Part shown: positions 6,901 to 41,803 of the stretch, one piece after another | Numbering within the stretch: the stretch's first letter is position 1 | Layout of the letters: each line of letters opens with the position of its first letter | Source of the DNA: a virus | DNA length: 43,938 bases | IMG/VR virus record: IMGVR_UViG_3300036862_000033 | Span: 1-43,938 of that record | Direction: 5' to 3' (one strand) | Made by a program: the position numbers and the translations under genes | The notes under the pieces: model-generated | Database searches by the model: none | Seen by the model: only the letters and a program-made list of their open reading frames with translations | What the model was told of the DNA's origin: nothing

Positions 6901-7096
6901 TTGTCGCTCCGTGATCACCGGAGAGGGGAGGAGCCGATGGAGTTCGCAGCACAGCCTCGCAGTTATTGCATCGATACACCCGGCCGTGCTTCATCTCGCG
7001 GCGCTTCGGCCCTATGACCGGCGAATACGACGCCCGTTGGATTGGCGGTTCCTCTAAGTCGATCCAGTGATGCGAACACGGCGCCCACGACGTCAT
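6890..7096 (-). CDS. Small zinc-ribbon-like early protein
   Basis: A 68-residue product starting MTSWAPCSHHWIDLEEPP, whose ATG overlaps the upstream stop (ATGA). Cys/His residues in the N-terminus (CSHHW) and YRCNNCEAVLRTPS near the C-terminus could form one zinc site. Such proteins are frequent in early regions of environmental phages. No specific role can be given. Confidence 0.7.
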   Translation of the reverse strand: MTSWAPCSHHWIDLEEPPIQRASYSPVIGPKRREMKHGRVYRCNNCEAVLRTPSAPPLSGDHGATNDE

Positions 7097-7338
7097 GGCT
7101 TCAACCTCAAGAGGCCAGACATGTCGCTCGGCGCCACGGGACCGTCTGACACATCCCATCGCGCAATGTCCTCAATTGTGGCTTCTCGGACAGCCTCAGC
7201 CCGCCCGCACAGCACTTCCCACGCATCCCGCAGCCGCCAGCGCCACGGTGCCGGAATTGGGAGCATGAACACCCACGGTCCGCCTGAGCCGAACTTGTTC
7301 GACTGCGGAAGCCGCGCGACATCTTCCAACACCATCAT
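7093..7338 (-). CDS. Conserved phage early protein
   Basis: An 81-residue product starting MMVLEDVARLPQSNKFGSGG. The ATG at 7338 is chosen because GGAG lies 8 bases upstream; the in-frame GTG at 7347 has no room for a ribosome site. The central PWVFMLPIPAPWRWRLRDAW followed by EVLCGRAEAVREA is an amphipathic segment that I recall from small proteins of unknown function in Proteobacteria phages. Cytoplasmic; role unknown. Confidence 0.7.
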   Translation of the reverse strand: MMVLEDVARLPQSNKFGSGGPWVFMLPIPAPWRWRLRDAWEVLCGRAEAVREATIEDIARWDVSDGPVAPSDMSGLLRLKP

Positions 7339-7348
7339 GGTTGCCACT

Positions 7349-7366
7349 CCATCGCTCGGTACCTCA
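7349..7366. repeat. 18-bp direct repeat, copy 1
   Basis: CCATCGCTCGGTACCTCA occurs here and again, identically, at 7558-7575. Read on the minus strand each copy carries a GAGG ribosome-binding element and an ATG, and each lies just upstream of a gene start. It may reflect duplication of an initiation region. Confidence 0.7.
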
Positions 7367-7561
7367 GCGCGTCTCGCGCGTCGCTTCCAATCGCTCTTTC
7401 ACATGCTTGGAGATGTGCGCGTTCCGGCCTATTTCGTTCGGCTTTCCCGTCCTATCCTCAAACGGGAAGTCTTTCCCGCAGAGGCGGCAGCGCCACACGA
7501 ACTCGGGATCGAGCGTGCGGCCACCGACCCGAACCTGCTGAAAGTATTCGCGCGTACCCAT
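7364..7561 (-). CDS. Zinc-finger-like early protein
   Basis: A 65-residue product starting MGTREYFQQVRVGGRTLD. It has a clear CxxC...HxxxH site (WRCRLCGKDF ... AHISKHVKER), as in a single C2H2-type finger. ATG at 7561 is preferred because GAGG lies 9 bases upstream; the frame is open a further 27 codons to a GTG that lies almost on top of a GAGGAGG. Nucleic-acid binding is likely but untested. Confidence 0.7.
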   Translation of the reverse strand: MGTREYFQQVRVGGRTLDPEFVWRCRLCGKDFPFEDRTGKPNEIGRNAHISKHVKERLEATRETR

Positions 7562-7575
7562 CGCTCGGTACCTCA
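7558..7575. repeat. 18-bp direct repeat, copy 2
   Basis: Identical to 7349-7366. Here the ATG inside the repeat is used as the start of the zinc-finger-like gene; in the other copy that ATG opens a five-codon frame before the next gene. Confidence 0.7.
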
Positions 7576-7629
7576 CCCCTCTGAAGACGGTGTGGGCTGG
7601 CCCGTGGAGATCACAGAGAGATCCCCCCG

Positions 7630-7911
7630 TTACAGCGTCCACGCCTCCTCATCACTGGTCAGGATCGTCACCAGCACCCCGGCCGCCTGAAACGCCGCAT
7701 GGAGCTCCATCTGGGCCTGTGTCAGCTTCCGCTTGCTCGGACTCTTCGCGCCGTCCTTCGCTTCGATGAACCGAACCACCCCTCGTCGTATCGCCAGCAG
7801 GTCCGGAAAGCCAGCTCCGACGCGAGAGGTATCCACCACCGTCCACCCGCTCGATCGCAGCGCCTGGACGATGCGGGCGTGCGTGGCATCCGTTCTGGCG
7901 GCTCTCCGCAT
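7630..7911 (-). CDS. VRR-NUC domain nuclease (PD-(D/E)XK)
   Basis: A 93-residue stand-alone VRR-NUC protein. The motifs are visible in order: an N-terminal helix (ARIVQALRSSGW), GAGFPDLLAIRRG with the catalytic Asp, FIEAKDG with the E-x-K pair, and the helix LTQAQMELHAAFQAAGV. Family members act on branched or nicked DNA, and several phages carry such minimal copies in their recombination region. ATG at 7911 is preferred to the TTG six bases upstream. Confidence 0.88.
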   Translation of the reverse strand: MRRAARTDATHARIVQALRSSGWTVVDTSRVGAGFPDLLAIRRGVVRFIEAKDGAKSPSKRKLTQAQMELHAAFQAAGVLVTILTSDEEAWTL

Positions 7912-7924
7912 ACTCAACGCTCGA

Positions 7925-8016
7925 GGCTCGGGGTCAGCGTGCCCGCCAGCCCGTCAGGGGCCTGGCTCTCGGCGCGTTCGTCAACCGCCGGCGCTGAGAC
8001 TTTCTGACCCCGAGCC
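7925..8016. repeat. 13-bp inverted repeat flanking a 66-base spacer
   Basis: GGCTCGGGGTCAG (7925-7937) and its exact complement CTGACCCCGAGCC (8004-8016) flank a G+C-rich spacer that can itself fold. It fills the gap between the 110-residue gene and the VRR-NUC gene. No T-run follows on either strand, so an intrinsic terminator is unlikely; an RNA processing or protein-binding structure is possible. Confidence 0.6.
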
Positions 8017-8021
8017 CCAAC

Positions 8022-8354
8022 TCAATCTGTCCCACTCTGCGCGACGGACTCACGCATCGACTCGCTCGCCTTCGGCGCAGCCGTCTCTCCACGGATGAAT
8101 TCCACGTCCACGACGTCGCCGCTCTGGAGCGTGTCCCACGTCGACACGATGTACTGATGCGCATTGTTCATCGTGCGATTGCCCCAGCCCCACGGATCGT
8201 AGGCGCACTGTTGCGTCGCCAGCGCGATGAGGTAAATCATCGAACCGTCGAAGCCGGCCCGCCGCAGCAGGTACCCGTCCGCACCGGACACCTGGATCGC
8301 CAGCGCCGGCACGAGCGTCCCCCGATCGCGAATCTCAAATAGCTTCGTCGTCAT
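8022..8354 (-). CDS. Conserved phage protein, unknown
   Basis: A 110-residue protein starting MTTKLFEIRDRGTLVPALAI, with AEGYLL-type continuation (GADGYLLRRAGFDGS) and a conserved-looking PWGWGNRTMNNAHQYI. I recall this family from early regions of many siphoviruses, without known function. The stop lies one base after the preceding gene's region and precedes the inverted repeat. Confidence 0.78.
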   Translation of the reverse strand: MTTKLFEIRDRGTLVPALAIQVSGADGYLLRRAGFDGSMIYLIALATQQCAYDPWGWGNRTMNNAHQYIVSTWDTLQSGDVVDVEFIRGETAAPKASESMRESVAQSGTD

Positions 8355-8355
8355 C

Positions 8356-8616
8356 TCATCGCTCGCCGCTCTGCGCCAGCTTAAAGTCGTGCACCCACTG
8401 GGCCGGCGTCACCAAGACCGTCGGCTGTACCGTCGGCACCGCCACGGGTGGCGGCGACTCAATCGAATCTGGCGGCTCCAGCTCCAACCGATCCCGCGCA
8501 CAGCCGACACACCGCACGAGGCGATGCGCCGTCAGGAGCAGCAGCGGACTCCGCGGCGGGATGATCGCGCCGCAGTAGCCACACACCTGATCCCCAATCG
8601 CGAACGCCCACGTCAT
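8356..8616 (-). CDS. Small zinc-ribbon protein
   Basis: An 86-residue protein starting MTWAFAIGDQVCGYCGAI. Two knuckles, CGYC and CVGC about 23 residues apart, form a probable zinc ribbon. The C-terminal half is Pro/Val-rich and probably disordered. It overlaps the replication-like gene by ATGA and may bind nucleic acid or partner proteins in early replication. Confidence 0.75.
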   Translation of the reverse strand: MTWAFAIGDQVCGYCGAIIPPRSPLLLLTAHRLVRCVGCARDRLELEPPDSIESPPPVAVPTVQPTVLVTPAQWVHDFKLAQSGER

Positions 8617-9005
8617 GACGTCAACTCCCGCACTGGGTATTTCGCCGTACCCAGCAGCCGCTTGCTCTCACACATGGCCTGGTGCGCGCAGTGTTCAAGG
8701 TGCGGACAGATCCAGGCCCGAGTCTCCGATCGCCGCGCCTGAGGCGGCTCGTCCGTCCAGCGCTGCGCTCGAAGCCACCGTGCCGGGTAGGGCACGAACT
8801 CGCCGCCGTCTTTCGTCCAGGCCGGCTGTCGCGCCTGCCACTCGAGCGCCTCGATCATGCGATCCACCGTCTCCGCCTCCGGGGCCACTTGCGCCCAAGC
8901 CTTCCGCGCGTCCAACTTCGCGACTCGCTTGGGGTAGGCTGCCCAAAAGCGCGCAAAATTGGGATCGTCTTCTGGTACTAGCTGGTTGCTCTTGTGCTTT
9001 CCCAT
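8613..9005 (-). CDS. Replication-organiser-like protein
   Basis: A 130-residue protein. Residues about 15-90 carry FARFWAAYPKRVAKLDARK, then MIEALEWQARQPAWTKDG and FVPYPARWLRAQRWTDE. This is the C-terminal module often found in phage replication initiators (O/DnaD-like helicase-loading proteins). The N-terminal DNA-binding part is absent, so this is either a minimal form or a separate loader. A 346-base gap upstream could hold its origin or promoter. Confidence 0.72.
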   Translation of the reverse strand: MGKHKSNQLVPEDDPNFARFWAAYPKRVAKLDARKAWAQVAPEAETVDRMIEALEWQARQPAWTKDGGEFVPYPARWLRAQRWTDEPPQARRSETRAWICPHLEHCAHQAMCESKRLLGTAKYPVRELTS

Positions 9006-9351
9006 TCGCTAGAACCGTGAAAAAGACACGACGGCTTTTACCAATCGCTTATCCGCTGTTGGCCCCAGCCGTACGCCGTATCGTGTGGCCTTGCTGTGTG
9101 CTGCCCCGGCCACTTAGGGGCTGATATCGTTCCAGTTTCCAGGTGGGGAGGACTGCGCGGCTGGTACCACGCAGGGCAGGCATTGCAGCCCACAACGCCA
9201 GATCGCTGGCGCCCGTCGAATCCTCTATCCCCTATGCACAACCGGCCCGCGTCTCCGCGGCCTTCGAGTCAGCTTGCCTGACCAGCTCCGACCGTACTTG
9301 TTCGCCCCGAGTCGGTGGGGCCTGTTATCTGCCGCCGCGCCCGCTGCGGAA
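9006..9351. other. 346-base gap without a convincing gene
   Basis: The largest gene-free stretch of the early region, between the PD-(D/E)XK gene and the replication-like gene. Short frames occur on the minus strand (for example a 44-codon one starting MPALRGTSRAVLPTWKLE), but none has a good ribosome site or recognisable family. It could contain the replication origin or a promoter for the downstream early genes. I saw no tRNA or terminator. Confidence 0.4.
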
Positions 9352-23860: not shown

Positions 23861-23945
23861 GCGGGCGTGGCGGAACAGCATACGCACCGGTCCTTAAAAC
23901 CGGGGCCCTGGCAGGGGATTGTGGGTGCAAATCCCACCGCCCGCA
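23861..23945 (+). tRNA. Class II tRNA, Leu-like, anticodon UUA (ochre-suppressor-like) or degenerate
   Basis: Acceptor stem GCGGGCG/CGCCCGC (23861-23867, 23938-23944) with A73; no CCA encoded. D-stem GCG/CGC; anticodon stem CCGGT/ACCGG (23887-23891, 23899-23903); variable arm CCCT-GGC-AGGG; T-stem GTGGG/CCCAC. The seven-base anticodon loop is CCTTAAA, so positions 34-36 read TTA, which pairs with the UAA stop. A one-base slip would give Leu UAA but breaks the stem. Departures from standard are C33, a D-loop lacking GG, and G at T-loop position 55. Real fold, uncertain activity. Confidence 0.75.
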
Positions 23946-23957
23946 CTCCAAGCCCTT

Positions 23958-31098: not shown

Positions 31099-31497
31099 TT
31101 AAGGCTTCCGGCCCCATGCACCGTTCGAGACAAAATTCCCGGACAACGTGTTCGCGCCGCCAACCGGCACCGCGATCGACGCATCCAACCACGCCGGGCC
31201 GTACCAGTACATAGTCGGCGCACTCGACGCGGGGTACAGATAGAGCCGGCACCCATCGGCGGAGTCCGCCGCCGTGAACAGGCTGAGGCCCGTGTCATCA
31301 AGAAAGCCGGTGACCGTGCCTTTGACATCCTTCAGCCCTTGGACGTATGTCTTGTTGGGATCGCCGAACGCGGTGACTTCGACCTTGTCCGTTGAGAGAT
31401 CCAATGTCCATCCTGAGAGCGCGACGGTGGACGTGGCCGCCCCAGCGCCCGTTGTGCTCATGTAGACCACCCCCGATTTCCCATGGTAGCGAGCCAT
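31099..31497 (-). CDS. Major tail tube protein
   Basis: A 132-residue protein: VALSGWTLDLSTDKVEVTAF, NKTYVQGLKDVKGTVTGFLD, then the second sheet GCRLYLYPASSAPTMYWYG and TLSGNFVSNGAWGR. This is the TP901-1/phiE125-type tail tube signature (GDxNKTYVQGLxD). It is followed by gpG and the tape measure gene and preceded by a glycosyltransferase/methyltransferase pair. Confidence 0.88.
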   Translation of the reverse strand: MARYHGKSGVVYMSTTGAGAATSTVALSGWTLDLSTDKVEVTAFGDPNKTYVQGLKDVKGTVTGFLDDTGLSLFTAADSADGCRLYLYPASSAPTMYWYGPAWLDASIAVPVGGANTLSGNFVSNGAWGRKP

Positions 31498-31515: not shown

Positions 31516-32592
31516 TTACGCAGCCCGTCGCTGCAAGAGCGTCTGTATGTCACCAATGACTTGAGTCGAACGCTCGACCCAGGACGACTCGGCCACACAG
31601 GCCGGCAGATCACGTGCGATATGCGCGCGCCCGACAGGATTCGCCAACCACGATCGCAGCAATGACGCGGCGTCCGCGGGCGTGTCGAAGGTCGGCACGA
31701 GGTCGCCGAAGATTTCGCCCACTTCCGCGCGGGCCGTCGAGAGATGGAACGCGCCGCAGGCCGCCAGTTCATACGCCCGCGGGTTCAACGATTCCGCGTA
31801 GGCGATCGTCGGTGCCTGCCGTCCCCATCCCTTCGACGTGCGATACAGGTTGAGCCCGATCTTCGCGCGCCGATAGAGGGCTGCCGTCACGGCGTTATCG
31901 ACTTGCGCTCCGCGTACACAACGGCGGAGCGGATGCCGTGAGCCGAGCGCCTCCCATGATCCGTACAGGCCCAGATCGATCCCGCTCCAATCAATCGCGG
32001 ACAGCCACTCGACCCGCTCACGGAAGGCGGACCCGACGAACACGACATCATGCGCCGCGACGGCCATGTCACCGGGTTGCGGGCCACGCCGATGCCGTTC
32101 GGGATGCCAGCCATGGGGCAGATACCCGCTGTGCGGGTTCACCTGACGGAACGCCTCGACGGCGGAGCGCTCGTTCGTCCAGCAGCCATCCACCAGCGCT
32201 GCCACCGCCAATTCCTTTTCTAGATCGTACGGGGATTCGGTGAACGCGACCACCACGCGGAGCCCGGCGCGCTTCATTAACACGATGACATCCGGATGCA
32301 GAAACATCGCGCTGACGGCGAGAACGACATCGACGTTGTGACGGAGCGCCATCTCCAACGCGCCGATCCCGGCCTGATAGAACACATCGGCCACAGTCGG
32401 CTTTGCAATCGCTGGGTTGCGTTTCTTCGTGCGGCGCCAGTTGTAATGCAACCACCGCTGCGAGCGATCGATCCGCTGATCGAGCATGTACCGCACGATA
32501 CGAACACCGTGTTGCTCCAGCCCATAGCGCAAGCCGGCCGCGACATCCGCCGTCGCCCATGATGCGCCCGGGTCAATGAAGAGAACCGTCAC
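31516..32592 (-). CDS. Glycosyltransferase (GT-B, CgeB-like)
   Basis: A 358-residue protein from a GTG that overlaps the methyltransferase stop (GTGA). N-terminal VTVLFIDPGASWATADVAAG and LRYGLEQHGVRIVRYMLDQR, a middle segment DVVLAVSAMFLHPDVIVLMK, and the C-terminal nucleotide-sugar side KIGLNLYRTSKGW, NPRAYELAACGAFHLST, VPTFDTPADAASLLRSWL (CgeB/Glyco_trans_1-like). Substrate unknown. Its place directly before the tail-tube gene suggests glycosylation of a virion protein or of its own appendages. Confidence 0.85.
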   Translation of the reverse strand: MTVLFIDPGASWATADVAAGLRYGLEQHGVRIVRYMLDQRIDRSQRWLHYNWRRTKKRNPAIAKPTVADVFYQAGIGALEMALRHNVDVVLAVSAMFLHPDVIVLMKRAGLRVVVAFTESPYDLEKELAVAALVDGCWTNERSAVEAFRQVNPHSGYLPHGWHPERHRRGPQPGDMAVAAHDVVFVGSAFRERVEWLSAIDWSGIDLGLYGSWEALGSRHPLRRCVRGAQVDNAVTAALYRRAKIGLNLYRTSKGWGRQAPTIAYAESLNPRAYELAACGAFHLSTARAEVGEIFGDLVPTFDTPADAASLLRSWLANPVGRAHIARDLPACVAESSWVERSTQVIGDIQTLLQRRAA

Positions 32593-33224
32593 ACTGGCTT
32601 CCTCGCCGAGCATAGATAGCCGGTGGTCGCCTGGGTTTGGCTGGCAAACCCGAAACACTCAAAGCGCCGCATGAAGTCGTAGGCCGCTGCACCTTCGTCC
32701 GTCCACGCGCACGGCACAATCGTCACGTCGACGAACGCCTGGAGGAGGAGCTCCCAACCATGCCGCGTGAATCGCCAGTAATCGCGGTACTCACCCTCGA
32801 TGCCGTGCTCTGGCCAGATGTAGGGCGACGTCACGAGGAGCAATCCGCCAGGCTTCAGCACGCGCCGTACTTCGTCCACCGCCGCGCGCGGATCCGTGCA
32901 GTGCTCCAAGACTTCCGTCAGCAGCACGCCATCGAAGACGTCGTCCGGAAACGGCAGCGCCAGCAGATCGCCGCGGACGTCTTCGCCATGCTCGCCGAAT
33001 GTGACATAGCCATCCCCCAACCACCGGCGCGGGATATAGACGCCGACGTCGAGGATGTCGCGCCCAAGCGCCGCGCGGTTCGACCAGATCCAGTGTTCGA
33101 GCTGCAGGCGATGAAAGTCGGGCGCGGGGAATTCATGCAGGCCCGGCGTCTGCTGCGACCAGCGCAGCAACAGCGCGGCATCGACCGACTGACTGAGCCC
33201 GTAGAGCAACACGTCGCGACTCAT
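32589..33224 (-). CDS. SAM-dependent methyltransferase (type 11)
   Basis: A 211-residue class I methyltransferase: ILDVGVYIPRRWLGDG (motif I region), VRGDLLALPFPDDVFDGVLL, TEVLEHCTDPRAAVDEVRRV and LKPGGLLLVTSPYIWPEHG. The family methylates small molecules or sugars. It overlaps the tail terminator (ATGA) and the glycosyltransferase (GTGA), so the pair may build a methylated glycan on the virion. Confidence 0.88.
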   Translation of the reverse strand: MSRDVLLYGLSQSVDAALLLRWSQQTPGLHEFPAPDFHRLQLEHWIWSNRAALGRDILDVGVYIPRRWLGDGYVTFGEHGEDVRGDLLALPFPDDVFDGVLLTEVLEHCTDPRAAVDEVRRVLKPGGLLLVTSPYIWPEHGIEGEYRDYWRFTRHGWELLLQAFVDVTIVPCAWTDEGAAAYDFMRRFECFGFASQTQATTGYLCSARKPV

Positions 33225-33637
33225 AGACTCGCCATCACCCTGTAGTGCCCGAGGCGCCTAAACCAGAGGATCGAGGTGTCACTCTCGTCACGCTCGGTCT
33301 TGCGATCGCGCGCTTCTCGATAGCACGTCATTAGCGTGTATCCAGGGATCGAAAACGAGGCGCCTTCAAGCAACGCGTCGACGCGCGCGAACGCCGCCTT
33401 TGGATTCCCATTCGCTGTGGATAACATCCGCACTTCAACGGCGTACAGGTTGTCTTCGTACGAACGTCCGCCAAACTGCTGCACGTCCTGTTCGTCCACG
33501 AAACTGACCACGACAAACCGCGTCGCATCTGGCGGGGCCTGATCCCAATACACCCCATTCGGCACTAAGGCCAGTAACGTGGCGTCGGCGCCAAGCCGCG
33601 CGATCACCGCATTGTCGATGTCGCTGCTGTCGGCCAT
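33221..33637 (-). CDS. Tail terminator-like protein
   Basis: A 138-residue protein: IDNAVIARLGADATLLALVP, TRFVVVSFVDEQDVQQFGGR, YAVEVRMLSTANGNPKAAFA. This is the usual size and layout of the tail terminator (DUF3168-like, gpU-like) between the gp10-like and tube genes. Its ATG directly abuts the TAA upstream in the same frame. Confidence 0.75.
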   Translation of the reverse strand: MADSSDIDNAVIARLGADATLLALVPNGVYWDQAPPDATRFVVVSFVDEQDVQQFGGRSYEDNLYAVEVRMLSTANGNPKAAFARVDALLEGASFSIPGYTLMTCYREARDRKTERDESDTSILWFRRLGHYRVMASL

Positions 33638-34562: not shown

Positions 34563-35071
34563 GCCAACGCCGGATCCCGCTGCCGCCTCAGTAGCCGTTC
34601 AATCGCCAGCCAACACGCTTCATCGGCCTTCTCGTCGTCGCCGCGCTGCTCGTACAGCCTCGTCAACATCAACAAGACCGCTGCCTGCACCTGCCCAGGC
34701 ACCGTCGCGTCGGTCCATGTCGGACTACTGACCGTGCCAGCGGCAGACGACTGCCCCACCGTGACATTGACCGGCACGGTAAACATGGTCGGCCCTGTAA
34801 CCGTGATCACCTGTGCTCCGTTCACCGTCGGCGTGGTCGTCGTCCCGGCGATGGTGGACGTCGCCCCACTCGTCAGGCTATGCGGCACCGACGTGGTAAT
34901 AACCGTGGGATTGGCCACGGAGATCGACGCAATCGCCGTCAGCCGCACCTTCAGGTAATCGAGGATGATCGCGCTCGCCTGCTCGACCTTGACATTGATG
35001 TCCCAGTCGTGATCGTCGTCTGGCACCCGAAGGTGGATTTTTGCCAACTCGAGGGACACCAGCGCCGCCAT
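34559..35071 (-). CDS. Head-tail connector (gp6-like) with inserted beta domain
   Basis: A 170-residue protein. Residues 1-42 (LELAKIHLRVPDDDHDWDIN, QASAIILDYLKV) and 128-170 (VQAAVLLMLTRLYEQRGDDE) make the helical HK97 gp6-type adaptor. Between them lies an inserted beta segment of about 80 residues (PTVITTSVPHSLTSGATSTI, GAQVITVTGPTMFTVPVNVT). It should form the first ring below the portal. The insert probably projects outward. Confidence 0.83.
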   Translation of the reverse strand: MAALVSLELAKIHLRVPDDDHDWDINVKVEQASAIILDYLKVRLTAIASISVANPTVITTSVPHSLTSGATSTIAGTTTTPTVNGAQVITVTGPTMFTVPVNVTVGQSSAAGTVSSPTWTDATVPGQVQAAVLLMLTRLYEQRGDDEKADEACWLAIERLLRRQRDPALA

Positions 35072-35769
35072 TACGCACCCACCTTCACGACCGGCACAAG
35101 GTCACGGCCATTTAAGCCGTCCTTGCCGTCACGCCCGCGCTTCACGGCCAGCGTCCACGCCTTTGATCCATCCCCCGGCTTCGCCGTCGTCGGCATGGTG
35201 CAGTGCCATTCCGATCCCGCCCAGGTCACGCGGTCGCAGGACTCGTACCCCTTACCATCGATGTGCACGCCGCGATAGATCGGCATCGGGAAGCGCAAGA
35301 CGCCCCCCTCAATCGGATCGCCGTTCTTGAAGCACAGCGTGACCGTCCGCTCACCGTCGAACAGGACCTTGATGTTCTCCAGCGTGCCGTCCCGACCGTT
35401 CAGCCCGTCCGCGCCGCGCGCGCCATCAAGCCCCTTCTCGCCTGGGACGCCTGGTACCCCTGGCAACCCATCGCGCCCGTCACGCCCTAGCGCCCCCTCT
35501 GGGCCACGCTCCCCGGCAGGGCCTGCCTGACCATCCGCCCCGCGCTCACCGGCCGGCCCGGGCGCTCCTGCGGCGCCTGGCGGCCCCTGTGCGCCGTCCA
35601 AGCCCTTCTCGCCGGCCGGTCCAGGCGCTCCGTCACGGCCAGGGATTAGCGCCTTGGTCTCGAGCGCCGCCGTGAACCGCGCCTCGGTCTGCGCAATGGC
35701 CGCCGCGATGGCGTCGCGGATCACAGGCGCGATACCGCGGACCACAGCCGTCAGATCGGCCTCAGTCAT
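35071..35769 (-). CDS. Collagen-like virion protein
   Basis: A 232-residue protein with an N-terminal helix ([20 protein letters not shown]), about 25 Gly-X-Y triplets (residues about 44-128, with [16 protein letters not shown]), and a C-terminal beta domain ([46 protein letters not shown]). Collagen-like triplets form trimeric rods. Between portal and connector genes it may be a capsid or neck fibre. It overlaps both neighbours. Confidence 0.85.
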
Positions 35770-38075: not shown

Positions 38076-38531
38076 TTATTGTCGTTGTTGGAACCACAAC
38101 CGTACCGTGCCGCCTTTCGAGACGCCCGCATTCGAGACGACGAGATCGAGCGTGGTCGTCGCGTCATAAAGGATGGGCGCGGTCGGCACGATGATCGTGG
38201 ATACGGTCGCGCTGAGATTCGCGCCCGTCCCCGCCAGAAAATCCACGCCGTTGGCATCATTCAGGACGATGTCGTACAACGCCGACGGCGCCGTCCCGCC
38301 GCCGTCGGGAATGAACTTGATCTGGACTAAGAAGCCAACCACCGGCGTAATGGCGTTCCCGCTCACGTTGCCAGAGGCATCAGACACCCACGCCAGGCTG
38401 TATTTCGTGCAGCGAATATCCGAGAGCGTGGTCGTCGTCACCGTGACGGTCCCGACGGCCTGCGGACTGGCCTGCAGCAATAGCGCGAGGACGACACCAA
38501 CGAACACTGCCATCCGAAGACGCCGCGTCAT
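38076..38531 (-). CDS. Virion-type beta protein with N-terminal signal-like segment
   Basis: A 151-residue protein overlapping the methyltransferase by ATGA. The N-terminus MTRRLRMAVFVGVVLALLLQ then ASPQAVG looks like a Sec signal. The rest (YSLAWVSDASGNVSG, FIPDGGGTAPSALYDIVLND, ANLSATVSTIIVPTAPIL) matches a virion protein family common in siphoviruses that normally lacks a signal. An exported copy would be unusual; the segment could also be a hydrophobic anchor. Confidence 0.75.
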   Translation of the reverse strand: MTRRLRMAVFVGVVLALLLQASPQAVGTVTVTTTTLSDIRCTKYSLAWVSDASGNVSGNAITPVVGFLVQIKFIPDGGGTAPSALYDIVLNDANGVDFLAGTGANLSATVSTIIVPTAPILYDATTTLDLVVSNAGVSKGGTVRLWFQQRQ

Positions 38532-39142
38532 ACGCACTCCTTCTTCGTGCCGTAGATCAACTGGATGCCGTGTCGATCCGCTGGGGTGGATTGATACCGC
38601 GTCAGCGAGAGCCGGTGCTCGCGCTCGAACTGATCCCACGCCTGCTTCACGCCCGGGTACATGTCGCTGCCATAGTCATCGCCCAGAATCAGCCCGCCCG
38701 GGCGCACATATGGCACCCACGCGCGCAGATCGGCGAGTACGCCCTCATATGAGTGATCGGCGTCGACATAGAGGTAATCGATCGGCTGTGTCCAGTAGAT
38801 CGCCGCGTCGACCGTATCCGACACGATCAGCCGCACGTTCGTATTGACTTCCGCCTGGATCAGATTGCGCGCACAGTTCGCGAGCATCCACGGCATCGTG
38901 ACATTCGTCATTGCGGACAGGCGCGTCTCGGCGTTTACGTTGCCGCGCCAGTTGTCGACGCATGTCAGCGCGCCGCCCCACCGCCGGATAGCGCGGGCCA
39001 CCGGAATCGCCGACGCGCCCTGCCACGTCCCGAGCTCGACGCAGACCACCGGGCGATACCGTTCGACCAGCGCAAGAATCTGACTGCCGTGGTTGAACCA
39101 GCCTTGCGTCAGGGGATCGGCGGCGATCGCGGTGTCAGGCAT
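38528..39142 (-). CDS. SAM-dependent methyltransferase (Methyltransf_24 type)
   Basis: A 204-residue class I methyltransferase: VVCVELGTWQGASAIPVARA, LTCVDNWRGNVNAE, IDYLYVDADHSYEGVLADLR and YVRPGGLILGDDYGSD. This subtype often modifies sugars in glycan or nucleotide-sugar pathways. Paired with the neighbouring glycosyltransferase, three genes after the capsid gene, it may tailor a virion glycan. Confidence 0.88.
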   Translation of the reverse strand: MPDTAIAADPLTQGWFNHGSQILALVERYRPVVCVELGTWQGASAIPVARAIRRWGGALTCVDNWRGNVNAETRLSAMTNVTMPWMLANCARNLIQAEVNTNVRLIVSDTVDAAIYWTQPIDYLYVDADHSYEGVLADLRAWVPYVRPGGLILGDDYGSDMYPGVKQAWDQFEREHRLSLTRYQSTPADRHGIQLIYGTKKECV

Positions 39143-39305
39143 GGACCCTCGTGTACCCGCGCGCGAGCAAATCCTCGATCAGCGCCGCCTGTGCAACCGC
39201 ATAGAACTTGGCCGTTCCGCTGAATCCCGAGTCCTGCGGCGGCTTCAGTTCTACGATCTCGTCGTCAGGCGGAGACGCCTTCGGCTTGGATGGTTCGGTA
39301 CGCAT
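39135..39305 (-). CDS. Possible 56-residue protein between glycosyl- and methyltransferase
   Basis: Frame MRTEPSKPKASPPDDEIVEL followed by FYAVAQAALIEDLLARGYTR. It overlaps the glycosyltransferase by 41 bases and the methyltransferase by 8. The tail looks like a short helical adaptor. Without a clear ribosome site the call is moderate. Confidence 0.5.
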   Translation of the reverse strand: MRTEPSKPKASPPDDEIVELKPPQDSGFSGTAKFYAVAQAALIEDLLARGYTRVHA

Positions 39306-39882
39306 GCTGGCCAATGTGTTCAATCTCCTTCGAGAGATCGTGATCGATGTAAATCTCGTAGCCGGCCGCACGGAGACCCCGGCAGAACATCACGTCTTCC
39401 CCGATGTCGCCGCCCCACTCGTTGAGCCCGTGCCGGAACCACGGCCGACCGAGGCCCGTCACGACGTCCGTCTGCATCAACATGGCGCCCATGCCGACAT
39501 ACTCGACAGCTTCCAGCCCAGTGGATCGCTCCGTCGTCTCCACCCGCGTGTCGCCCCGGAAGGCCGTGAATAGCCCGGAGGCTTGCCGCACGCGGTAGTT
39601 GCACGCCACGATCGGTTGCTCGTGCATCGCTAATAGGACAGCCAACTCCCGCGGCACGCGCATGTCCGTATCGAGCCAGAGAATGTGCGTGGCGCCTTGC
39701 TTGATCGACGCCTCGAGGAACCATTCCCGGCCGACGTGGATGTACGTGGACGCCACGAAATCGAACGTGACGTCCTTTCCCCACGGCCCCATCTCGCGGG
39801 TGTACGCGAACAGGTGCGCCGCTGAGACGGCGAAGGCGGCCGGCACGCCATCGCGTGTCGGCCCCCCAATCGCGAGCCGCAT
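39265..39882 (-). CDS. Glycosyltransferase (GT-A fold)
   Basis: A 205-residue protein starting MRLAIGGPTRDGVPAAFAVS, with the DxD motif in ILWLDTDMRVP, then PIVACNYRVRQASGLFTAF, YVGMGAMLMQTDVVTGLG and DIGEDVMFCRGLRAAGYE. Family members transfer a sugar from a nucleotide donor. The start follows the capsid stop by one base (TAGGATG), so it is translated with the capsid protein, suggesting the capsid or a head protein as acceptor. Donor unknown. Confidence 0.86.
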   Translation of the reverse strand: MRLAIGGPTRDGVPAAFAVSAAHLFAYTREMGPWGKDVTFDFVASTYIHVGREWFLEASIKQGATHILWLDTDMRVPRELAVLLAMHEQPIVACNYRVRQASGLFTAFRGDTRVETTERSTGLEAVEYVGMGAMLMQTDVVTGLGRPWFRHGLNEWGGDIGEDVMFCRGLRAAGYEIYIDHDLSKEIEHIGQHAYRTIQAEGVSA

Positions 39883-39883
39883 C

Positions 39884-41803
39884 CTAGGTGCCGATGTACG
39901 CGGCGGCGGTGATGTAGCGCACAGCCGCGGTTCTGGCACGAATCCACGTGATCATTCGCTCGGCCTTGAGCCCGATCAAATTCCGTTGCCACAGCGACAG
40001 ATAGACGGTCGTCGCGTCCACGGTGTCGGTCGGCGCCGAATCCATCTGTACGCTCGCTTCGCGCGACACGTCAATCCGTACGCCGCCTTCATCGGCGAAC
40101 AGAATCGACGGGGCGTGGACGAGGATCACGCGAGTCGAGACGTTGTTGCTGACAATGACCGGCATCCCGAACAGGGTTCCACCCTGCGCCGTCATCCCCG
40201 GGAAGAGCGGCTGTCCAAGCGCGTTCATCGAGATCGAGAGCCCGAACGCGTTGGAGTCGTTCATCAGCCAGACACTGCCGTCGAGGGGAATGTTGGCCGC
40301 CGTAAAGACCGCGATGGACGCCGCCAAATCCGCCTTGGCGGCCGCCGCCGTCACGCCACTGGCCGCCGCGGTCGAGGCGCCGTTCGTGATCGAGGCCGGC
40401 GACACGTTCGCGGCCACCGCCACCGCGGGATCGTTGAACTGCACGTCCAGGAAGGCGCCCATGCCGGCGATCATTTCCTCCCGCACGAGGTTTTCCGCCG
40501 ACGGGGACGACAGAGTCGCCAATTCTTCCGAGATCACGATGATGCCCGCCGCCTTCGCGAACGGGACGGTCACCGTCGCATAGTCGGCCTTCGTCACCGG
40601 CTTCGGTTTGTTCTGGCCGACCCAGCCGTACGTCCCGCCCGTGGTCTGCGTCGGCACGGAGACGTTGAACGGCACCTGGCGGAGTCCGGGAATGCGCCCG
40701 AGCAGCGTGCGCGGGCGAAGCAGCTCGAGGAATTCGTTCAGCGGCTGCGTCACGACGAGCGGTCCCGCCCACGTGGCGTCCGTGGTCGTGCCGGCCGCAA
40801 CGGCGGCCTTGGTCCGCCACATGTGCTGCACCATCTCTTCGACTTCGGGCGTGGAATCCTTCCACTGCTTTGCGAACTGCAGCGTCTGGTACGAGTCCCC
40901 ATGGCCCGCGGCCATCGCCATGCACATCCGCGCGAAGGCCGTCCCCTTCGGGACGTTGGCCTTGACGGTGATCACCGGATGCGACACGGCCCCGCGCAAA
41001 TCGCTGGCCGCGAGGCCGGTGGCGGTGTTCGTGATCGGCGTGGCCTTGGTCACGCTCATGCGTTCCATGTCGCGGAGGTCCACGAGCTCGGCGTCGATGG
41101 CCTTGAGTCCGAGCTTCAGCGTGTCGAATTCTTCGCGCTGGGCGGCGTCCTTCGTGTTGCCCTCCGCCGTCGCAGCGTTTTGGATTTCCGTCATGCGCGC
41201 GAAATCGGCCGCGCGCTTGTTTTCGAGGCCGGTGATCTGTTCCTGAATCGTCATGGTGCGGGGCGCGTCCTTACGCGCGCGGACAACGGGAAGTGAGCCC
41301 GTAGCGCCGGGCGAATGAAGGCCGGACGCGGCCAAATCGTTCGATTTGATGCTGGTGATCGTGGCTTCCGCATTCATCGGAAGCGTGACGGCGGACAACT
41401 CACCCCAGATCCACTTCAGGACACGCGTGAACCGCGTGCCCTTGATGGGCTCCGAGGCCAACTCTTTCCAGCCGATGCTGAGACCCCGCACGAGCGGAGG
41501 GGTCGCCGTGAAGGCGGACCACGCTTCGTCGACGAGAGTCTTCAAACGCCCTGGCTTGGTGACCGTCGAGACGCGGGCCTTGATGTAGATGCCGTCAGGC
41601 CGCACATCCGCCGCGAACACTTCCCCGATGGGGTCCATGGCGTTGTGAAACCAGAGGAAGGGGATGGGGAGGACGTATTGCGCACCAGCCGGATCCATTG
41701 CATCGCCGCCGCGATCGACGGCAGGCGTCGACGCAACGCCTTCGATGATGCGCTGCTCCGCGTCGATCGCTTTGATTTCGAACGTCGAATAGGCGCGGTC
41801 CAC
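39884..41803 (-). CDS. Prohead protease fused to HK97-type major capsid protein
   Basis: A 639-residue fusion from a GTG. Residues 1-155: S78-type protease with FLWFHNAMDPIG (catalytic His53), VRGLSIGWK (Ser109) and LSAVTLPMNAEA. Residues 184-265: coiled-coil delta scaffold (MTIQEQITGLENKRAADFAR). Residues 285-639: capsid domain (PLVVTQPLNEFLELLRPRTL, NAFGLSISMNALGQPLFPG, SREASVQMDSAPTDTVDA). The protease would free itself by cleavage; an internal ATG at residue 184 (41254) could give extra unfused capsid protein. Confidence 0.94.
   Translation of the reverse strand: MDRAYSTFEIKAIDAEQRIIEGVASTPAVDRGGDAMDPAGAQYVLPIPFLWFHNAMDPIGEVFAADVRPDGIYIKARVSTVTKPGRLKTLVDEAWSAFTATPPLVRGLSIGWKELASEPIKGTRFTRVLKWIWGELSAVTLPMNAEATITSIKSNDLAASGLHSPGATGSLPVVRARKDAPRTMTIQEQITGLENKRAADFARMTEIQNAATAEGNTKDAAQREEFDTLKLGLKAIDAELVDLRDMERMSVTKATPITNTATGLAASDLRGAVSHPVITVKANVPKGTAFARMCMAMAAGHGDSYQTLQFAKQWKDSTPEVEEMVQHMWRTKAAVAAGTTTDATWAGPLVVTQPLNEFLELLRPRTLLGRIPGLRQVPFNVSVPTQTTGGTYGWVGQNKPKPVTKADYATVTVPFAKAAGIIVISEELATLSSPSAENLVREEMIAGMGAFLDVQFNDPAVAVAANVSPASITNGASTAAASGVTAAAAKADLAASIAVFTAANIPLDGSVWLMNDSNAFGLSISMNALGQPLFPGMTAQGGTLFGMPVIVSNNVSTRVILVHAPSILFADEGGVRIDVSREASVQMDSAPTDTVDATTVYLSLWQRNLIGLKAERMITWIRARTAAVRYITAAAYIGT

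Follow-up and report, generated by a model that had tools for sequence, protein, structure and literature searches.

A glycosyltransferase gene almost inseparable from the tail-tube gene points to a probable tail-tube glycosylation locus in uncultivated phages

The window analysed here, the whole 43,938-base stretch of the IMG/VR virus record IMGVR_UViG_3300036862_000033, carries on its minus strand a late operon that runs, in transcription order, through terminase, a protease-capsid fusion, a GT-A type glycosyltransferase (GT), a Methyltransf_24 enzyme, small genes, portal, a collagen-like protein, adaptor, head closure, neck, tail completion, a Methyltransf_11 enzyme, a GT-B type GT, tail tube, small tail genes and tape measure. 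The tail side comprises the tail terminator or tail completion gene as upstream flank (33221..33637; PF11367, Tail_completion_gp17, E 1.9e-9), a class I SAM methyltransferase of the Methyltransf_11 family (32589..33224; PF08241, E 1.8e-14, with a class I fold model and relatives in the same slot elsewhere), the GT-B gene (31516..32592; PF13524, E 5.9e-17) and the major tail (tube) protein, the proposed acceptor (31099..31497; phrog_1407, E 5e-10; phrog_10528, E 4e-9). The initial annotation, which had placed a GT-B and a class I methyltransferase overlapping by GTGA between the tail terminator and the tail tube, is thus borne out by PF13524, PF08241 and the flanking families. Its second cassette beside the capsid gene was also recovered: directly after the protease-major capsid fusion (39884..41803; phrog_617, E 1e-133; PF05065), the proposed acceptor of that cassette, come the GT-A type GT (39265..39912; phrog_1574, E 3e-13, with PF13632, Glyco_trans_2_3, under the cut-off at E 2e-4) and the Methyltransf_24 enzyme (38528..39142; PF13578, E 1.2e-24), all on the minus strand like the tail genes. 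However, describing the two cassettes as matched was wrong, since they are non-homologous, with unrelated GT and methyltransferase families and opposite gene orders.

The methyltransferase and GT reading frames share an exact 4-nt GTGA overlap. Of 73 distinct relatives, at least 43 likewise have a GT that overlaps a long upstream reading frame by 4 nt, an arrangement suggestive of coupled translation. Because alignments of relatives begin at the GTG at 32592, this codon (giving 358 aa), rather than the reading-frame start at 32658, is most likely the true start of the GT. Two other features of the window should be mentioned. The collagen-like protein (35071-35769), between the portal and adaptor genes, shows weak carbohydrate-binding similarity. 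In addition, ARAGORN predicts on the plus strand (23861-23946) a tRNA of Leu-like type whose anticodon, TTA, would pair with the stop codon TAA, and TAA is the stop codon of both the GT and the tube genes in this same window.

The GT scores 62.4 bits against PF13524 (cut-off 25), the only Pfam family that it matches; NCBIfam models gave no match and PHROG no meaningful one. Its AlphaFold model (pLDDT 93) adopts the two-Rossmann GT-B fold, and the nearest solved folds are those of the retaining GT4-type MshA (Foldseek E 2.5e-13), GlgM, a methylmannose-polysaccharide mannosyltransferase and BshA, at a TM of only ~0.65. The PF13524 domain and the GT-B fold are features in common with CgeB/YkvP-like PF13524 enzymes and with the GT4-type MshA, BshA and GlgM, but at ~12% identity to these enzymes the GT belongs to a distinct family, linked to phage tubes. 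The methyltransferase (211 aa; PF08241 54.6 bits, cut-off 21.2) is a class I SAM methyltransferase by family score and predicted fold. The textbook GxGxG motif I was not found in it, the sequence at that place being DVGVYIPRRWLG; within its motif I region, ILDVGVYIPRRWLG, residues D59, V60 and G61 are invariant across 13 sequences. Its best PDB sequence match is LahSB, a RiPP methyltransferase, and the structures nearest to it include AtmM (listed as a D-glucose O-methyltransferase) and RebM as well as non-sugar enzymes. Because the nearest solved relatives include both sugar and non-sugar enzymes, sugar methylation is a role that we infer for this enzyme.

A GT-only search of viral contigs returned 100 relatives which, pooled with loci from other searches and after removal of duplicates, gave 95 distinct GT loci. 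A tube homologue lies directly downstream of the GT in 89 of the 90 distinct loci with a visible downstream side, the other five ending at a contig edge; 86 of these tubes were called by script, L036, L042 and L047 add three at 2-35 nt, and the GT-to-tube gaps are nearly all below 150 nt. In the single exception, from a Chloroflexota MAG, a protein without any family match sits where the tube would be expected. Note that the L142 record stops before the tube and carries no information on the linkage. Conversely, a tube-only search recovered 14 loci new to the GT search, and all 14 have the GT upstream; in the most distant of the tube-search loci the pair is intact with tubes 41–45% and GTs 32–35% identical. 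In locus G133 a tube identified by profile comes after the GT, and the GTGA-overlap layout recurs. A prophage of Klenkia brasiliensis, the sole named isolate found with the locus, also repeats the methyltransferase-GT-tube order, with the GTGA overlap and 1 base between GT and tube. In this prophage of strain DSM 44526 (locus L146), the methyltransferase ends at 7998, the GT spans 7995-9008 and the tube begins at 9010. No second prophage turned up when 115 genomes of the Klenkia family were searched by profile. Furthermore, the pair is retained in phages whose portal is 21–26% identical and whose capsid has no detectable relationship. Judged by gene order, this is no randomly inserted cassette, and the GT gene is almost inseparable from the tail-tube gene in this uncultivated soil and water phage lineage.

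Pairwise divergence points in the same direction: GT and tube correlate with rho 0.51 (partial correlation 0.46), the best of the neighbour pairs, against 0.31 for the tube and the next gene and 0.19 for the terminator and the GT, bearing in mind that saturation may depress the correlations of faster-evolving neighbours and that genes within one tail module are linked regardless. L138 and L139, incomplete records of a single lineage, carry a divergent tube type, and a phrog_22694 protein fills the gap between tail completion and tube; no GT was found in these records, and capsid, GT-A and Methyltransf_24 are all retained. A search of the tube alignment for the acceptor residue gave no clear candidate. 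Indeed, T42 and N48 are invariant in the tubes, as fits ordinary tube conservation, the GT-less tube of L138/L139 keeps T36 and N48 with T42 replaced by serine, and S79, invariant in 63 tubes, is lost from distant GT-linked tubes. As a separate observation, the tube gene of L009, L013, L045, L079 and L087 is interrupted by a few hundred nt after the conserved codons N48-K49-T50, and this insert resembles an intron, with no family match in Rfam. In another locus (L048), a tube-type GT occurs a second time, at 6911-7846 directly before the neck gene and 44% identical, so that this family may have come to serve a further target.

On the capsid side, the cassette follows the capsid gene directly in 14 of 14 loci with a capsid at least 64% identical and in neither of the two loci with a capsid 40–48% identical, and no GT-A was found in 20 long loci without a capsid of this type. 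Taken together with the L138/L139 pattern, this distribution indicates that, in the loci compared, each cassette tracks the allele of the structural gene beside it and not the allele at the other site.

The slot between tail completion and the GT is far less constant. Methyltransf_11 occupies it in approximately 37 of the 95 loci, six loci have no slot enzyme, and the remaining occupants include a second methyltransferase type, GT2, GT2+Methyltransf_24 fusions (L045, L058 and L065), radical SAM/SPASM, B12 radical SAM, a cytidylyltransferase with a methyltransferase, and a DegT/DnrJ aminotransferase. On a quick, partly resolved GT tree of 74 rows, we counted at least 22 changes of slot state, and the Methyltransf_11 status changed at least nine times. 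In the sampled loci, the methyltransferase is therefore an optional occupant of the slot and no fixed partner of the GT, and the occupants mostly belong to sugar-type or small-molecule enzyme families as far as family assignment goes. A constant transferase with varying sugar-type enzymes is expected if the sugar varies while the target stays, and the slot turnover suggests a fast diversification of virion sugars. Two further observations concern such enzymes: the slot of L035, L052, L068, L072, L078 and others holds a protein of the radical SAM/SPASM family, in many cases accompanied by a GT2 protein, and L017 (679-7481) carries GT, methyltransferase and dioxygenase-like genes between its collagen-like and neck genes, together with a second, distant GT-B copy.

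Altogether, these results make it probable that the tail cassette is a dedicated tail-tube glycosylation locus, in which a conserved transferase is accompanied by exchangeable sugar-tailoring enzymes. The GT-B, encoded just ahead of the tube in the same late operon, would move an activated sugar from the host pool onto the tube subunit, and the slot enzyme would tailor that sugar or extend the glycan. In the window, this step is probably the addition of an O-methyl group, and in relatives it could add a further sugar or an amino group, bring about a radical-SAM change or supply another nucleotide sugar. GT and tube are locked together in their evolution and the slot is often exchanged, so that each phage could acquire its own tail glycan. 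The unrelated GT-A/Methyltransf_24 cassette, linked to its capsid allele, may serve the capsid likewise. The benefit, on which we can only speculate, would probably be to shield the virion, or to give it a surface identity, once outside the host. The earlier proposal that both cassettes modify the neighbouring virion proteins thus stands in part: GT-tube co-inheritance, allele tracking and sugar-type slot swaps speak for it, but the methyltransferase is optional and the cassettes are not a matched pair. More tentatively, and with less than even confidence, we suggest a ‘glycan barcode’ in a large group of uncultivated phages, in which each major structural protein would have its own co-evolving adjoining GT and the hypervariable slot, radical SAM enzymes included, would change the tail sugar fast between close relatives, perhaps through selection on virion recognition.

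Other roles for these enzymes must be weighed against tube glycosylation. The slot enzymes could alter the tube polypeptide itself, by protein methylation or a radical-SAM peptide change, beside or in place of a sugar. Enzymes of the SPASM radical SAM type often act as peptide maturases, and LahSB as top match of the methyltransferase agrees with such a role; we nevertheless consider it unlikely, since the nearest structures also include AtmM and RebM and the GT2, PseC-like aminotransferase and HldE/TagD-like nucleotidyltransferase found in the same slot work on sugars or polyols.

It is a little less likely still that the slot enzymes, and perhaps the GT, target another virion protein, the collagen-like protein or a tail fibre, which the tube would merely adjoin. 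BclA-type collagen-like proteins elsewhere bear methylated sugars, collagen-like proteins are frequent in these operons, and in L017 the big run of sugar enzymes adjoins the collagen-like gene. However, where the tube has changed (L138/L139) the GT is missing, and about half of the 33 GT loci with at least 8 kb upstream have no Gly-X-Y run of eight or more triplets while GT and tube are still paired, for which reason the collagen-like protein was rejected as a universal target.

Pure inheritance of the module, with the GT as tail-module cargo acting on the host envelope so as to mask receptors or exclude superinfection, appears distinctly improbable. Phage GTs frequently modify host O-antigen or teichoic acids, and late-operon genes are inherited together. 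Yet cargo genes come and go, whereas the GT stays constant beside a slot that changes at least 22 times, and GT-tube co-divergence exceeds that of both adjoining pairs. Moreover, the GT has PF13524 only, and the gtr serotype-conversion set (GtrA flippase, GtrB polyprenol GT and membrane GtrC) is absent from the cassette, whose flanks are tail genes. Finally, we give hardly any credence to DNA hypermodification, for although some phage GTs glycosylate phage DNA, this GT lies inside the tail operon, is coupled to the tube allele and matches no DNA-GT family.

Only a handful of mycobacteriophages are known to have glycosylated virions, and this modification was described for Che8, Corndog and Myrna (Freeman et al. 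2023, as cited in PMC12363180, PMC11600133 and PMC12619734). According to these same citing articles, both the capsid and the tail tube reportedly bear glycans, which are linked to phage GTs and a methyltransferase, and cluster O phages carry an O-methyltransferase followed by three GTs (PMC11600133, PMC12363180, PMC12619734). Targeting of two virion modules, which the initial annotation had regarded as unusual, thus has a precedent in these mycobacteriophages. The Che8/Corndog-type systems and the window are alike in their phage-encoded GT or GTs and an accompanying methyltransferase. In addition, Che8 gp108, annotated as a glycosyltransferase in a phage with glycosylated virions, has the GT2+Methyltransf_24 make-up of the slot fusions mentioned above. 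The GTs and methyltransferases of the window gave no hit above chance to Che8 gp108-110 by BLASTP or profile search.

The podovirus MW202801.1, from a Manatee Spring metagenome, offers a second comparison: one gene after its major capsid gene, it carries a radical SAM enzyme, GTs, a methyltransferase and other sugar-type enzymes. It differs in having this run on the capsid side only, its enzymes are distant (26% identity for the radical SAM enzyme), and no member of the tube-linked GT family was found there.

What is novel in the present gene data is a different GT family that is physically tied to its proposed target; a search of 50,697 sequenced phage records found nothing related to the GT, the methyltransferase or the tube. 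Here, gene linkage points to the target, tube or capsid, in dozens of environmental phages and in the prophage of one cultured actinomycete, and since the linkage marks the proposed target, the assignment of GT to protein becomes directly testable; the GT family would also serve as a sequence marker for finding such phages. In Che8, in contrast, the GT genes are distant from their targets, at the far right genome end and ~48 kb from tube and capsid, whereas in the window each cassette adjoins the one structural gene that it is proposed to serve.
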